Positions 4,205-21,225 of a stretch of DNA of 64,000 nucleotides are shown here, piece by piece. The notes below the pieces were generated by a model, which had not been told where the DNA came from, ran no database searches, and worked only from the letters and a program-made list of their open reading frames with translations. Each line of letters opens with the position of its first letter. Positions within the stretch are counted from its first letter, which is position 1. The position numbers were made by a program, and so were the translations under genes. This DNA comes from Actinomycetota bacterium (lineage in GTDB: Bacteria; Actinomycetota; Acidimicrobiia; Acidimicrobiales; Ilumatobacteraceae), in the NCBI GenBank assembly GCA_026393475.1, contig JAPLAA010000008.1, forward strand, positions 37,689-101,688. The letters are read 5' to 3'.

Positions 4205-4684
4205 TCAGGCCTTTCTGAGCTCGGTGACGATGCCCTGGCTGGCCTCGACGAGTTTGTGGGGCTCGATGCCGAACACGTCGTGCCAGGTGCCGGCCGCGGC
4301 CCACACCTCGGGGTACTGCAACAGGTCGGGGTCGATGAACACGCGCAGCGGGGTCTTGTGGCCGAACGGCGGCACGCCACCGATCGGGTAGCCGGTGGTC
4401 TCGCGGACGATGTCGGCATCGACGCGGGCGCACTTCGTGCCGCCGGCGGCTGCGGCGAGCTTGCGCTCGTCGAGTTGGTTCGACCCGCTCACGTAGGCGA
4501 GCACGATCTCACCGTCGACACCGAAGATGAGGCTCTTCACGATCTGGCCGACGTCGACCCCGATCGCCGCGGCCGCGTCGGCGGCGGTCTTGGCTCCCTC
4601 GGCGTATCGCCTCGGTTCGATCGAGAGCCCGAGCGCCTCGGCGGCGCTGACGACCTTGACGACGTTGGGGTGCAGATCCGTCAC
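4205..4684 (-). CDS. YbaK/EbsC family aminoacyl-tRNA deacylase
   Basis: GVDVGQIVKSLIF..., GYPIGGVPPFGH motif. Confidence 0.9.
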   Translation of the reverse strand: MTDLHPNVVKVVSAAEALGLSIEPRRYAEGAKTAADAAAAIGVDVGQIVKSLIFGVDGEIVLAYVSGSNQLDERKLAAAAGGTKCARVDADIVRETTGYPIGGVPPFGHKTPLRVFIDPDLLQYPEVWAAAGTWHDVFGIEPHKLVEASQGIVTELRKA

Positions 4685-4799
4685 GACGTCCGAACCTATC
4701 GGGAGCTCCGAACGCGGCGCACGCTCCGGCGACGCATCCGGCCTCCAGACATGACACGTTCGCGTTGCGACACCGGAAATCCGCCTCTAGTCTTGCCGA

Positions 4800-4960
4800 C
4801 GAAGGGGAGTATCCCTCAGCACCGTGATCGTCAGTACGGCGTCCGGGTCTCACGACTCGAACACCCGGGCACGGTGGTTCGCCGAGCGCAACGAAGCGCC
4901 GGTCGAGCGGGAGAGACCTTCGGTATCGACACTCGAACGAGCACGACCGAAGGACAACCC
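4800..4960 (+). promoter_or_regulatory. yybP-ykoY-type (Mn2+-sensing) riboswitch with expression platform
   Basis: gaaGGGGAGTAtccc ... gatCGTCAGTACGGc ... gaGAGACCTTcgg; P1 cgaagg(4800-4805)/ccttcg(4917-4922); alternative hairpin ccttcggt(4917-4924)/accgaagg(4946-4953) masks the SD. Confidence 0.8.
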
Positions 4961-4967
4961 ACACGTG

Positions 4968-7778
4968 ATGACCCTGCCCTCTTCCGGCGCATCCGGAGCT
5001 CAGCTCCCCACCGACGCGCACCGCCACGACGGCTCCACCGTCGCCGAGCACCTCGGCGTCCAGCCCGATCGCGGGCTCGACGCGGCCGAAGTGCAGCGAC
5101 GGACCGAGCAGTACGGTGCCAACGTCCTCGCCGAAGCGGCTCGTACCCCGGCGTGGCGGCGCCTCGTCGCCCAGTTCACCGACCTGCTGATCCTCATCCT
5201 GATCGGCGCCGCGCTCGTCGCCTTCGCGGTCTCCGGTGAGCTGAAGACCCCGCTCGTGGTGCTCGTCGTGGTGGTGTTCAACGCGATCATCGGGTTCATC
5301 CAGGAGAACCGAGCCGAGAAGTCGCTCGAGGCGCTGAAGAAGATGTTGGTCATCCAGACGAGGGTGCGCCGCAACGGCGAGCTCGTGAACCTGCCGGCCG
5401 GCGAGTTGCTCCCGGGCGACATCGTGATGATCGAGGCGGGCGACCGTGTGCCGGCCGACGGTCGGTTGGTCTTCGCCAACAGCCTCGAGATCGAAGAGGC
5501 CGCACTCACCGGTGAGAGCCAGCCCTCCACGAAGGGCATCGAATCGATCGACCGCGACAGCGTTCCGCTCGGCGACCGCAAGAACATGGTCTACATGAAC
5601 ACCACGGTCACCCGCGGCCGTGGCGAGTACGTGGTCACCGCGACCGGCATGGCCACCGAGATCGGCCGCATCGCCGGCCTGCTGCGGGCCACCGAGACCG
5701 AGAAGACCCCGCTGCAGAAGCAGCTCGACGGTCTGGCACACAGCCTCGCCAAGCTCGCCGCGGCGATCGTGATCGCCGTGTTCGTGATCGGGCTCATCCG
5801 CGGCGAGAGCGCCAGCGACCTGCTGCTCACCGCCGTCGCCCTCGCCGTCGCCTCCATCCCGGAGGGCTTGCCCGCCGTCACCGCCGTCACCCTCGCCCTC
5901 GGCGTGTCGAAGATGGCCAAGCAGAACGCGATCGTGAAGCGGCTCGCCTCCGTCGAGACGCTCGGTTGCACCAGCGTGATCTGCAGCGACAAGACCGGCA
6001 CCCTCACGCTCAACCAGATGACCGCGGTCGAGCTGATCACTCAGCTGCGCCGTCACGAGGTGACCGGCGACGGTTACGCACCGGTCGGGACGATCGTCCA
6101 TCTCGACGGCGACGAGCCCGTCGCCCTCGATGCCGCCCTGCTCCCGATGGCGCTGTGCACCGACGCGGCGATCCGCAAGGTCGACGACCGTTGGGATCTC
6201 GTGGGCGACCCCACCGAGGGCGCGCTCGTCGTGCTCGCCGCCAAGGGTGGCCTCGTCATCGACGATGTCCGTGCCAACCACCCCCGCATCGCCGAGGTGC
6301 CGTTCGACTCCGCCAACAAGTTCATGGCGACCGCGCACCAGCTCGTCGACGGCAACGGGCGCCGCCAGGTCACCCTGTACGTGAAGGGTGCGCCCGACGT
6401 GCTGCTCGCCCGTTCGTCGCACGTCATCGGCACGGACGGCTCGGCCGAGCCGGTCGCCGGCCATCTCGACACCCTCCGCGACCACAACGATCGCCTCGCC
6501 TCGGCCGGCCTGCGCGTCCTCGCGGTCGCACAGCGCGAGTTCTCGGTGGACGACTGGACCGAGTTCACCGCCACCGGCGGCGAGCCGATCGAGCTCGTCC
6601 GCGACCTCACCCTCATCGCCCTCGCCGGCATCGTCGACCCGCCTCGCTCGGAGGCCAGGGTCGCGATCGCCGAGGCGCACGCCGCCGGCATCTCCGTCAA
6701 GATGATCACCGGCGATCACGCCTCCACCGCAGCGGCCATCGGCCGCGAGCTCGGCCTCACCGGCGAGGCGGTGACCGGCAACGACCTCGACCAGATGGAC
6801 GACCACGAGCTCGCCGAGCGGATCGACGACATCACCGTGTTCGCCCGCGTCGCCCCCGAGCACAAGATCCGGCTCGTGGCGGCGCTGCAGCGCAAGGGCA
6901 ACGTCGTCGCCATGACCGGCGACGGTGTGAACGACGCCCCGGCGCTCAAGAAGGCCGACATGGGCATCGCGATGGGCATCACCGGTACCGAGGTCACCAA
7001 GGAAGCCGCGACCATGGTGCTCGCCGACGACAACTTCGCCACGATCGTCAAGGCGGTCAAGCAGGGTCGCACGATCTACGACAACATCGTGAAGTTCGTG
7101 CGCTTCCAGCTGAGCACCACCCTCGGCTTCGCAGCGCTGTTCCTGCTGGCCGCCATCTTCGACATCGCGAGTGGCAAGCCGTTCACGGCGATCGCGATCC
7201 TGTGGGTGAACATCATCATGGACGGCCCGCCGGCCATGGCACTCGGTCTCGACCGGGCGGGCTCGGACGTGATGGCCCGCAAGCCCCGCCCGCTCACCGA
7301 GCGGATCCTCACCCGGAGCCGCTGGACCGCAGTCGCCTTCGCCGCCACCGTGATGGCGCTCGGCACGCTCGCCGTGCTGGCGCTCGCTCCCGGTGTGGAG
7401 GCCGAGGCCGGCACCGCCACCGTGGCCGGGACCATGGCGTTCAACACCTTCGTGCTGTTCCAGTTCTTCAACATCCTCAACGCCCGCAGCGATCGGCAGT
7501 CCGTCTTCACCCGGTTCACGTTCACCAACGGACCGCTGTGGCTCTCGCTCGCTGTCGTCGCACTCCTCCAGGTCGGCGTCACCCACGTCGGGTTCATGCA
7601 GTCGCTGTTCGACACCATGTCGATCTCGGCGACCCAGTGGCTCGTGTGCATCGCCGTCGCCTCCTCGGTGCTCTGGCTCGAGGAGCTGCGCAAGCTCGTC
7701 GTGCGCCGGCGTTACCCGCTCGACGGCTCCGCTGCCGACTCCCTCTCCCCCGACTCCCACCTGGAGGTCCCCGCATGA
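4968..7778 (+). CDS. cation-transporting P-type ATPase (PMCA/PMA-like, candidate Mn2+/Ca2+ exporter)
   Basis: CSDKTGTLTLNQM, TGES, MTGDGVNDAPALKKADMGIAMG; start at ATG 4968 (or GTG 4965) after the riboswitch, not the 4824 ORF start. Confidence 0.95.
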   Translation: MTLPSSGASGAQLPTDAHRHDGSTVAEHLGVQPDRGLDAAEVQRRTEQYGANVLAEAARTPAWRRLVAQFTDLLILILIGAALVAFAVSGELKTPLVVLVVVVFNAIIGFIQENRAEKSLEALKKMLVIQTRVRRNGELVNLPAGELLPGDIVMIEAGDRVPADGRLVFANSLEIEEAALTGESQPSTKGIESIDRDSVPLGDRKNMVYMNTTVTRGRGEYVVTATGMATEIGRIAGLLRATETEKTPLQKQLDGLAHSLAKLAAAIVIAVFVIGLIRGESASDLLLTAVALAVASIPEGLPAVTAVTLALGVSKMAKQNAIVKRLASVETLGCTSVICSDKTGTLTLNQMTAVELITQLRRHEVTGDGYAPVGTIVHLDGDEPVALDAALLPMALCTDAAIRKVDDRWDLVGDPTEGALVVLAAKGGLVIDDVRANHPRIAEVPFDSANKFMATAHQLVDGNGRRQVTLYVKGAPDVLLARSSHVIGTDGSAEPVAGHLDTLRDHNDRLASAGLRVLAVAQREFSVDDWTEFTATGGEPIELVRDLTLIALAGIVDPPRSEARVAIAEAHAAGISVKMITGDHASTAAAIGRELGLTGEAVTGNDLDQMDDHELAERIDDITVFARVAPEHKIRLVAALQRKGNVVAMTGDGVNDAPALKKADMGIAMGITGTEVTKEAATMVLADDNFATIVKAVKQGRTIYDNIVKFVRFQLSTTLGFAALFLLAAIFDIASGKPFTAIAILWVNIIMDGPPAMALGLDRAGSDVMARKPRPLTERILTRSRWTAVAFAATVMALGTLAVLALAPGVEAEAGTATVAGTMAFNTFVLFQFFNILNARSDRQSVFTRFTFTNGPLWLSLAVVALLQVGVTHVGFMQSLFDTMSISATQWLVCIAVASSVLWLEELRKLVVRRRYPLDGSAADSLSPDSHLEVPA

Positions 7779-8140
7779 AGTGCCCCATCGACACCACCGT
7801 CGATCTCGTGATGACCGATCGGCAGGGCATCGAGATCGACTACTGCCCCACCTGCCGCGGCGTCTGGCTCGACCGCGGTGAGCTCGACAAGCTGATCGAG
7901 CGATCCGCTGCCGTGCTCCCGCAGCCGGCCCCCCAACCGGTCGTCCAGCCCGCACCTGCGGCCGCCCCGCTGCCCGCAGCCGACTACCGACCCGACCAGC
8001 GGCCCGACCCCCGCTCCGACGATCGCCGGCCGCGATGGGACGACGACGACGATGACGACGATCGTGCCAAGTACCGCGACGGCTACGGCTACAAGAAGAA
8101 GAAGCGCTCCTCGATCCTCGGCGAGATCTTCGACTTCTGA
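7775..8140 (+). CDS. zf-TFIIB domain protein
   Basis: MKCPIDTTVDLV...DYCPTCRGVWLDRGELDKLIE ... C-terminal SILGEIFDF; ATGA overlap with the ATPase stop. Confidence 0.9.
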   Translation: MKCPIDTTVDLVMTDRQGIEIDYCPTCRGVWLDRGELDKLIERSAAVLPQPAPQPVVQPAPAAAPLPAADYRPDQRPDPRSDDRRPRWDDDDDDDDRAKYRDGYGYKKKKRSSILGEIFDF

Positions 8141-8258: not shown

Positions 8259-9119
8259 ATGTTCAAGAACACGATGAAGACCGGGGTGCTGCTCGCATCG
8301 CTCGGCGGCCTCATCGTGGCCGTGGCCACCATGTTGGGCGGCCGAGGTGGCGCCACGATCGGCCTCGTCCTGGCGTTCGTCATGGTCGGCGGCTCGTACT
8401 GGTTCAGCGACAAGCTCGCCCTGAAGTCCGCCCGCGCCCGGGTGATCACCGAAGCCGACCATCCCGAGTTCTACGGCATGGTGCGCTCCCTCGCCGAGCG
8501 CGCCAACCTGCCGATGCCGACGGTGGCGATCGCGCCCAGCGATCAGCCCAACGCGTTCGCCACCGGCCGAGGCCCGAAGAAGGCCGTGGTCTGCGCGACC
8601 GAGGGCCTGCTCACCTCGATGCCCCGTGCCGAGGTCGAGGCCGTGATGGCGCACGAGCTCATGCACGTGAAGCACCGCGACATCCTCATCGGCTCCGTCG
8701 CCGCCGCCATCGCCACCGCGATCAGCTACGTCGCCCAGATGGCGATGTTCGCTTCGATGTTCGGCGGCAACAGCAACGACGAGGACCGTCCCAACCCGAT
8801 CGCCGTCATGGCCATGGCGCTCCTCGCGCCCATGGCGGCGGGCCTCATCCAGATGGCCGTCTCCCGCTCGCGTGAGTTCGAGGCCGACCGTGGTGCCGCC
8901 GAGCTGCTCGGTTCGGGGCGGGAACTGGCGAACGCGCTCGAACGGATCGAGCAGCTGGCCGTCCGGCGGCCGATGGCGGTCGCGCCGGCCCAGGCGCAGA
9001 TGTACATCCACAACCCGCTGGCCGAGGCCCACGGCGGCAAGAACGCCGCCACCATGGCCCGCCTCTTCTCGACCCACCCGGCCACCGAGGAGCGCATCCG
9101 CCGCCTCCGCGGCATGTGA
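8259..9119 (+). CDS. htpX: M48 zinc metalloprotease HtpX
   Basis: VMAHELMHVKHRD (HExxH), SREFEADRGAAEL. Confidence 0.93.
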   Translation: MFKNTMKTGVLLASLGGLIVAVATMLGGRGGATIGLVLAFVMVGGSYWFSDKLALKSARARVITEADHPEFYGMVRSLAERANLPMPTVAIAPSDQPNAFATGRGPKKAVVCATEGLLTSMPRAEVEAVMAHELMHVKHRDILIGSVAAAIATAISYVAQMAMFASMFGGNSNDEDRPNPIAVMAMALLAPMAAGLIQMAVSRSREFEADRGAAELLGSGRELANALERIEQLAVRRPMAVAPAQAQMYIHNPLAEAHGGKNAATMARLFSTHPATEERIRRLRGM

Positions 9120-9245: not shown

Positions 9246-9300
9246 GATCAGTTCAGGATCAGTTCAGGATCAGTTCAGGATCAGTTCAGGATCAGTTCAG
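9246..9300. repeat. 11-bp tandem repeat x5 just beyond the sufC stop
   Basis: gatcagttcag repeated five times. Confidence 0.95.
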
Positions 9301-9307
9301 GAGCGGA

Positions 9308-11683: not shown

Positions 11684-11720
11684 AGTCCTCCACCTCGGCG
11701 AGGTGCGATCTCCGACCGCG

Positions 11721-11764
11721 GATCAGTCGCGGATCAGTCGCGGATCAGTCGCGGATCAGTCGCG
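11721..11764. repeat. 11-bp tandem repeat x4 spanning the stop codon of 11756-12103
   Basis: gatcagtcgcg x4; coding strand CGCGACTGATC repeated. Confidence 0.95.
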
Positions 11765-20739: not shown

Positions 20740-20744
20740 TCCTC

Positions 20745-20844
20745 GTCACCCAACCGCGACGTCACCCGACCGCGACGTCACCCGACCGCGACGTCACCCG
20801 ACCGCGACGTCACCCGACCGCGACGTCACCCGACCGCGACGTCA
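20745..20844. repeat. 16-bp tandem repeat x6 running into the stop of 20842-21225
   Basis: gtcacccgaccgcgac repeated (first copy one mismatch). Confidence 0.95.
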
Positions 20845-21225
20845 CCCGAACAGGGCGGCGAGGACGGCGAGGGCAGCGAACCCGGCGTTGCGAGCGACGT
20901 GCCTGCCGCCGAGCGGCGCCGTGCTCCACGCCCCGAAGCACGCGCACTGGGGATGACGGCCGCGACGGAGCTGTACGACGATCGCCGCCGTGAACCCGAT
21001 CAGCGTGACGAGTGCGGCGATCGCTGCCCAAGGCGAACCCAACCCCGCGACCAGCAGCGCACCGACGGTCATCTCCCACCACGGCACCACGAGCGCCACG
21101 GGACGAGGAGCACCGAGTTCGGCTGCCTGCACCGGCCATTCGCGACCGCGTGCGACCTTGCTCGCGCCGGCGACGACGAACACGATGCCGAGCGCCATCT
21201 CGGCGATGAATCCCAGCACGTCCAT
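20842..21225 (-). CDS. MauE/DoxX-like membrane protein
   Basis: LGIVFVVAGASKVARGREWPVQAAELGAP..., RGRHPQCACFG. Confidence 0.8.
   Translation of the reverse strand: MDVLGFIAEMALGIVFVVAGASKVARGREWPVQAAELGAPRPVALVVPWWEMTVGALLVAGLGSPWAAIAALVTLIGFTAAIVVQLRRGRHPQCACFGAWSTAPLGGRHVARNAGFAALAVLAALFG

Follow-up and report, generated by a model that had tools for sequence, protein, structure and literature searches.

Here, we report that the leader of a P-type ATPase gene in the window (the whole 64,000-nucleotide stretch of DNA that was analyzed, from an acidimicrobial actinobacterium) is very probably a Mn2+-sensing yybP-ykoY riboswitch with a translational ON expression platform. Synthesis of the pump is probably confined to conditions of ample manganese. 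The leader (4800–4970) lies between a divergent gene for a YbaK-like Cys-tRNA(Pro) deacylase (4205–4684, minus strand) and the ATPase gene. All sequence blocks on which the original prediction was built occur where it had placed them (GAAGGGGAGTA at 4801–4811, GATCGTCAGTACGG at 4826–4839, and GAGAGACCTTCGG at 4911–4923), as do cgaagg (4800–4805), ccttcg (4917–4922), ACCGAAGG (4946–4953), GTG 4965, and ATG 4968. The features are as follows.

4765–4793, plus strand: putative promoter, with a −35-like TTGCGA (4765–4770), a 17-nt spacer, and a −10-like TAGTCT (4788–4793)
4800–4922, plus strand: yybP-ykoY-type (Mn2+) aptamer, from structure, covariation, and a match of covariance model R1 that spans 4797–4923
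4800–4805, plus strand: 5′ strand CGAAGG of P1, the switch helix, with its partner at 4917–4922; from covariation and folding
4806–4811, plus strand: 5′ side of L1, GGAGUA (3′ side: GAGA, 4913–4916), invariant in 66 of 66 readable sequences
4812–4815 with 4909–4912, plus strand: second helix of the P1 leg, UCCC/GGGA, 97.3% of cells paired
4820–4876, plus strand: P3 hairpin, CACCGUG (4820–4826) with CACGGUG (4870–4876), two-sided changes in 8 of 8 pairs
4828–4837, plus strand: L3, UCGUCAGUAC, part of the P3 hairpin; A4833 is the predicted Mn2+-contacting adenosine
4838–4839 (GG) with 4864–4865 (CC), and 4866–4868 (CGG), plus strand: further parts of the P3 hairpin
4877–4908, plus strand: P4 hairpin, variable
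4917–4924, plus strand: shared switching strand CCUUCGGU, pairing with 4800–4805 (ON) or 4946–4953 (OFF)
4946–4954, plus strand: partner ACCGAAGGA that sequesters the Shine-Dalgarno sequence (SD), containing the SD GAAGGA (4949–4954)
4965–7778, plus strand: P-type cation ATPase of class IIA (PMR1/SERCA-like), 936–937 aa, starting at GTG 4965 or ATG 4968
7775–8140, plus strand: TFIIB-type zinc-ribbon protein gene (PF13453), overlapping the ATPase stop by 4 nt
8259–9119, plus strand: HtpX-like M48 membrane metalloprotease gene (PF01435)

Class membership, fold, and ligand

The original prediction assigned the leader to the yybP-ykoY class, suggested a search with RF00080 as a check, and named the absence of a significant Rfam hit, together with the lack of a Mn2+-dependent structural change, as what would refute it. 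RF00080 (Rfam 15) was run on the window, its own genome (4.5 Mb, 136 contigs), the order, and the phylum, and nothing was found at this locus; the window was unmatched at the gathering threshold, a curated-model criterion rather than a biological defining feature, and likewise at E = 10. The hit was indeed absent, but this does not refute the assignment, because RF00080 is insensitive in Actinomycetota, and the suggested search would have misled. At E-values that are rough owing to a short calibration, a second covariance model, R2, matched 71 of the 298 genomes searched in the phylum (E ≤ 0.001), versus 13 for RF00080 in the same genomes (E ≤ 0.01), with 1 over its cut-off. In the printed alignment of RF00080 (177 positions), the P1/L1 5′ region is unpaired, and low-information sequence is placed after P3. 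This arrangement and the missing P2 probably explain the blindness of the model, and the construction of the current RF00080 model (Manganese) looks poor around P1/L1 and on its 3′ side. The terC leader of Corynebacterium glutamicum was listed in an older Rfam release with a score of 49 bits (PMC3890552); here, C. glutamicum was matched by RF00080 at the loosest threshold only and not in stricter scans.

Class membership was instead borne out by R1, a covariance model trained on 22 relatives from this clade alone and including no known yybP-ykoY member. Its top two matches in 14.5 kb were E. coli alx (29.1 bits) and mntP (28.5 bits), with the next best at 8.0 bits. The window aptamer itself scored 77 bits, which is high by construction because the window was a training sequence. 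Elsewhere, RF00080 and R1/R2 marked the same RNA in G161:C168 (RF00080, 31.9 bits), G079:C180, G506:C82, and G526:C98, and in G451:C77 an R2 match overlapped an RF00080 match that was over the cut-off (49.1 bits). The recovery of alx and mntP, these overlaps, and the gene context place the leader in the known class, with statistical homology to accepted members. A new riboswitch class had also been considered and was dropped once R1 recovered alx and mntP and RF00080 matches overlapped those of R2.

In ~20 genomes, orthologous ATPase genes are likewise preceded by the three sequence blocks, which is far beyond chance, and in this family of genomes the orthologous leaders keep the order GAAGGGGAGTATCCC, TCGTCANNACGG, CCCGG, GGGAGAGACCTTCGG, CCGAAGGA, and start codon. 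The core elements GGGAGUA, CGUCA, CCCGG, and AGAC are essentially invariant among relatives. Covariation in 67 model-aligned copies was 0.498 versus 0.156 in shuffled alignments (none of 500 shuffles reached it), and sliding the partner strand by 1–3 columns gave no more than 0.104; this alignment was fitted to the structure. An unfitted MAFFT alignment of 22 sequences gave 0.275 versus 0.138 in shuffles (slid partners, ≤0.083), and 90.0% of its cells paired versus 81.0% in shuffles. The pattern by which the seed sequences were chosen covered just L1 with its 3′ partner strand; P3, L3, and the SD pairing thus played no part in the selection. Both P1 and P3 are backed by covariation.

The window shares with RF00080 the L1 sequence (GGGGAGUA...GAGACC), the L3 motif CGUCA with the Mn2+-contacting adenosine, a P3 whose 3′ strand carries CGG, and P1 as the switch helix. 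It differs in falling below the cut-off of that model and in P2, which is absent from the window aptamer, where the gap from the P1 leg to P3 is just 4 nt (4816–4819). Whereas crystallized members have a four-way junction (P1, P2, P3, and P4), the predicted junction in the window is three-way; it is a structural variant of yybP-ykoY and gives no ground for exclusion from the class. P4 without P2 characterized the window and 55 of the 67 copies, and both helices were present in 3 of the 67. Similarly, only a few nucleotides separate the P1 leg from P3 in E. coli alx, without room for P2 when aligned.

From homology, gene context, and pairing, we infer Mn2+ as the ligand. L1 and L3 are conserved, and the column of the adenosine known from yybP-ykoY crystal structures to contact Mn2+ (PMC6754395) is A in 66 of 66 readable sequences. 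An order-wide search for copies not tied to ATPase genes found R1 matches in 44 of 199 genomes. The genes after the 48 order-wide copies included 15 for P-type ATPases, 13 for TerC, and 7 for GDT1 (together 35 of 48), as well as 1 for a CDF transporter; the aptamer thus stands before Mn2+/cation homeostasis genes.

It is unlikely that the same fold is tuned to Ca2+, Cd2+, or Mg2+, with the pump being a Ca2+-type P-ATPase. The ATPase does score best to Ca2+-ATPase models: its best NCBIfam match is TIGR01522 (PMR1-type Ca2+ model), at 720.7 bits, under the cut-off of 798.3. PMR1-type pumps transport Ca2+ as well as Mn2+, which counts against such tuning. Structures of yybP-ykoY crystallized with Cd2+ exist (PMC6754395), but L1, L3, and the Mn2+-contacting adenosine are unchanged here, and this aptamer is also found before genes of the Mn2+-linked TerC and GDT1 families. 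For the Mn2+-sensing riboswitch that we favor, we also infer the metal specificity of the pump, i.e., Mn2+ export, and the direction and size of the response.

Switching strand and expression platform

Two competing, mutually exclusive pairings exist as originally predicted: P1 comprises 6 bp, and the SD helix comprises 8 bp. When growing transcripts were folded with energies that ignore Mg2+/Mn2+ tertiary contacts (no tertiary contacts were modeled), the probability of P1 was 0.95–0.98 until 4945, 0.71 at 4950, and 0.0 from 4953, where that of the SD helix was 0.93. The unconstrained minimum-energy fold of the full leader was OFF-like rather than the aptamer, as expected without tertiary contacts. 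The ligand-free SD-helix state was ~8 kcal/mol better, and freeing of the SD therefore requires that a ligand hold P1.

Among relatives, the shared strand varies in sequence (CUUUCG, CCUCCG, CCUUGU, CCGCAG, and others), usually with matching changes in both partners; at its most variable position, 11 of 14 changes were pairable in both helices. The switching strand found a mean of 7.93 bp in its own downstream complement versus 6.16 bp in those of others (0 of 10000 permutations as high; relatedness uncontrolled). Pairing of P1 or the SD was poor in L083, L097, and L102, and the switch of L083 may work differently given this poor pairing. A helix that sequesters the SD is exclusive with the ligand-stabilized helix, and a scan of the leader found no intrinsic terminator, which together argue for translational control that is ON with ligand. 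Comparative evidence thus upholds both the switching strand and the translational ON logic of the original prediction, the direction being drawn from homology, gene context, and pairing.

We propose that transcription would start at ~4800 and that the aptamer (4800–4922) would fold first. Mn2+ would bridge L1 and L3 (A4833) and stabilize P1 (4800–4805 with 4917–4922); with P1 intact, the SD (4949–4954) would be single-stranded and the ATPase translated. Without Mn2+, once 4953 has been transcribed, 4917–4924 would quit P1, pair with 4946–4953, and bury the SD. The ATPase, with the overlapping zinc-ribbon gene, would lower cytosolic Mn2+.

Rho-dependent or other attenuation in the leader, with the SD pairing as a side effect, is quite improbable. 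SD-hiding leaders can also expose Rho sites, which counts in its favor; against it stand the negative scan for intrinsic terminators in the leader and the overlap of the downstream complement with the SD, seen in the window and recurrently in relatives.

The translational ON switch proposed here resembles known systems. Work by Martin et al. in 2019 is said to show that a Mn-sensing riboswitch of Streptococcus pneumoniae activates a Mn2+/Ca2+ P-type ATPase, the same combination of a Mn riboswitch and a P-type ATPase as in the window, in a different phylum. Lactococcus lactis yoaB, which encodes a P-type ATPase, has a transcriptional (terminator) platform and a four-way junction, whereas the window combines SD sequestration with a three-way junction. 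As in the window, the switch helix of yoaB competes with the expression platform, and yoaB is a Mn2+ ON switch (PMC9190785). In Xanthomonas oryzae, Mn2+ stabilizes the switch helix (PMC6754395), which agrees with the proposed mechanism. In E. coli, translation initiation at mntP is switched on by its 5′ leader in response to Mn2+ (PMC9603457). Both mntP and alx of E. coli are under Mn2+-dependent ON control like that proposed here and were found by the clade model R1, although their aptamers score just ~29 bits with it and their genes (alx is a TerC family member) differ from the P-type ATPase in the window. A translational OFF switch, in which ligand binding hides the SD, is very improbable: one of the two states does have the SD base-paired inside the leader, but the strand that sequesters it also closes the aptamer, so that ligand binding must free the SD, and the known members that precede exporter genes act as ON switches (PMC9603457; PMC9190785).

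Gene neighborhood and start codon

The original prediction named a P-type ATPase as the regulated gene, and this holds on the basis of its Pfam domains (Cation_ATPase_N, E1-E2_ATPase, and Cation_ATPase_C) and comparative evidence. In start codon alignments, L016 agrees with GTG 4965 and L022 with ATG 4968. It is hardly credible that the conserved leader is coding, with translation of the ATPase beginning at GTG 4824 and adding an N-terminal extension: the window does have an open frame from 4824, but GTG 4824 lies inside helix P3, in-frame stops interrupt many orthologues within or beyond the aptamer, aptamer length ranges from 89 to 127 nt without varying by codons, and the changes preserve RNA pairs. 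The ORF-track start at 4824 is wrong, as had been predicted.

A strict scan for the sigma-70 consensus found no promoter. With a loose pattern, a TANNNT box was located 17–20 nt before GGGAGTA in 19 of 19 leaders examined. The position of this box places the predicted transcription start (~4799–4801) at the first base of the aptamer and P1.

In the window, the genes for the ATPase, the zinc-ribbon protein, and the HtpX-like protease are neighbors, and the zinc-ribbon gene is probably co-transcribed with the ATPase gene. No aptamer was found before the HtpX-like gene of the window (8259–9119). A GC-rich inverted repeat lies between the zinc-ribbon and HtpX-like genes. Perfect 11-bp tandem arrays, apparently intergenic, occur at 9246–9302 (GATCAGTTCAG, 5.2 copies) and 11717–11764 (CGCGGATCAGT, 4.4 copies), and the window contains further short arrays, e.g., at 20744–20849 (16 bp, 6.6 copies). 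A mir-3960 match on the minus strand (5023–5086) was far below its cut-off and was rejected.

Distribution of copies and a possible wider regulon

The genome of the window carries a second copy at C76:48667–48755 (L083), before an M50 protease gene, and a third at C20:8340–8492 (L084), before a gene for a PGPGW membrane protein. Across all 67 copies, other downstream genes encoded HtpX/M48 (3), M50 (3), PGPGW (4), and TFIIB-type zinc-ribbon (1) proteins. Homologues of the HtpX-like gene follow the riboswitch in L032, L033, and L068, and a homologue of the zinc-ribbon gene directly follows it in L050. In G247 (L017:4339–4435), the aptamer between the ATPase gene and its neighbor faces the other way, toward a PGPGW gene, and the ATPase gene keeps the SD-like GAAGGA without an aptamer. 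Genome G179 has five copies in all, among which L089 and L091 are single copies before unusual targets, a baeRF family 3 gene and a GreA/GreB-like gene (Pfam), respectively.

The copies before HtpX/M48, M50, PGPGW, and zinc-ribbon genes suggest a wider regulon. We tentatively propose, with somewhat less than even confidence, that the Mn2+ riboswitch in Acidimicrobiia governs genes beyond efflux pumps, these membrane proteases, PGPGW, and zinc-ribbon proteins forming a Mn2+-responsive membrane quality-control regulon. In Bacillus subtilis, HtpX and the Sec translocon were found to co-purify with TerC proteins (PMC10550928). A literature search, partial in coverage, returned no report linking HtpX, M50, PGPGW, or zinc-ribbon genes to a Mn2+ riboswitch.

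The mechanism is ordinary, and both it and the combination of this aptamer with a Mn2+ pump have precedents elsewhere; new are this member, its three-way junction in this lineage, and how widely the class occurs in Actinomycetota without being detected by RF00080. The public model overlooks most class members in the phylum (1 genome versus 71 with R2, of 298), and its misses leave a large Mn2+ regulon hidden and start codons misannotated. Genes for the ATPase, TerC, GDT1, HtpX, M50, and PGPGW offer candidates with which a link between Mn2+ and the quality control of membrane proteins can be tested.
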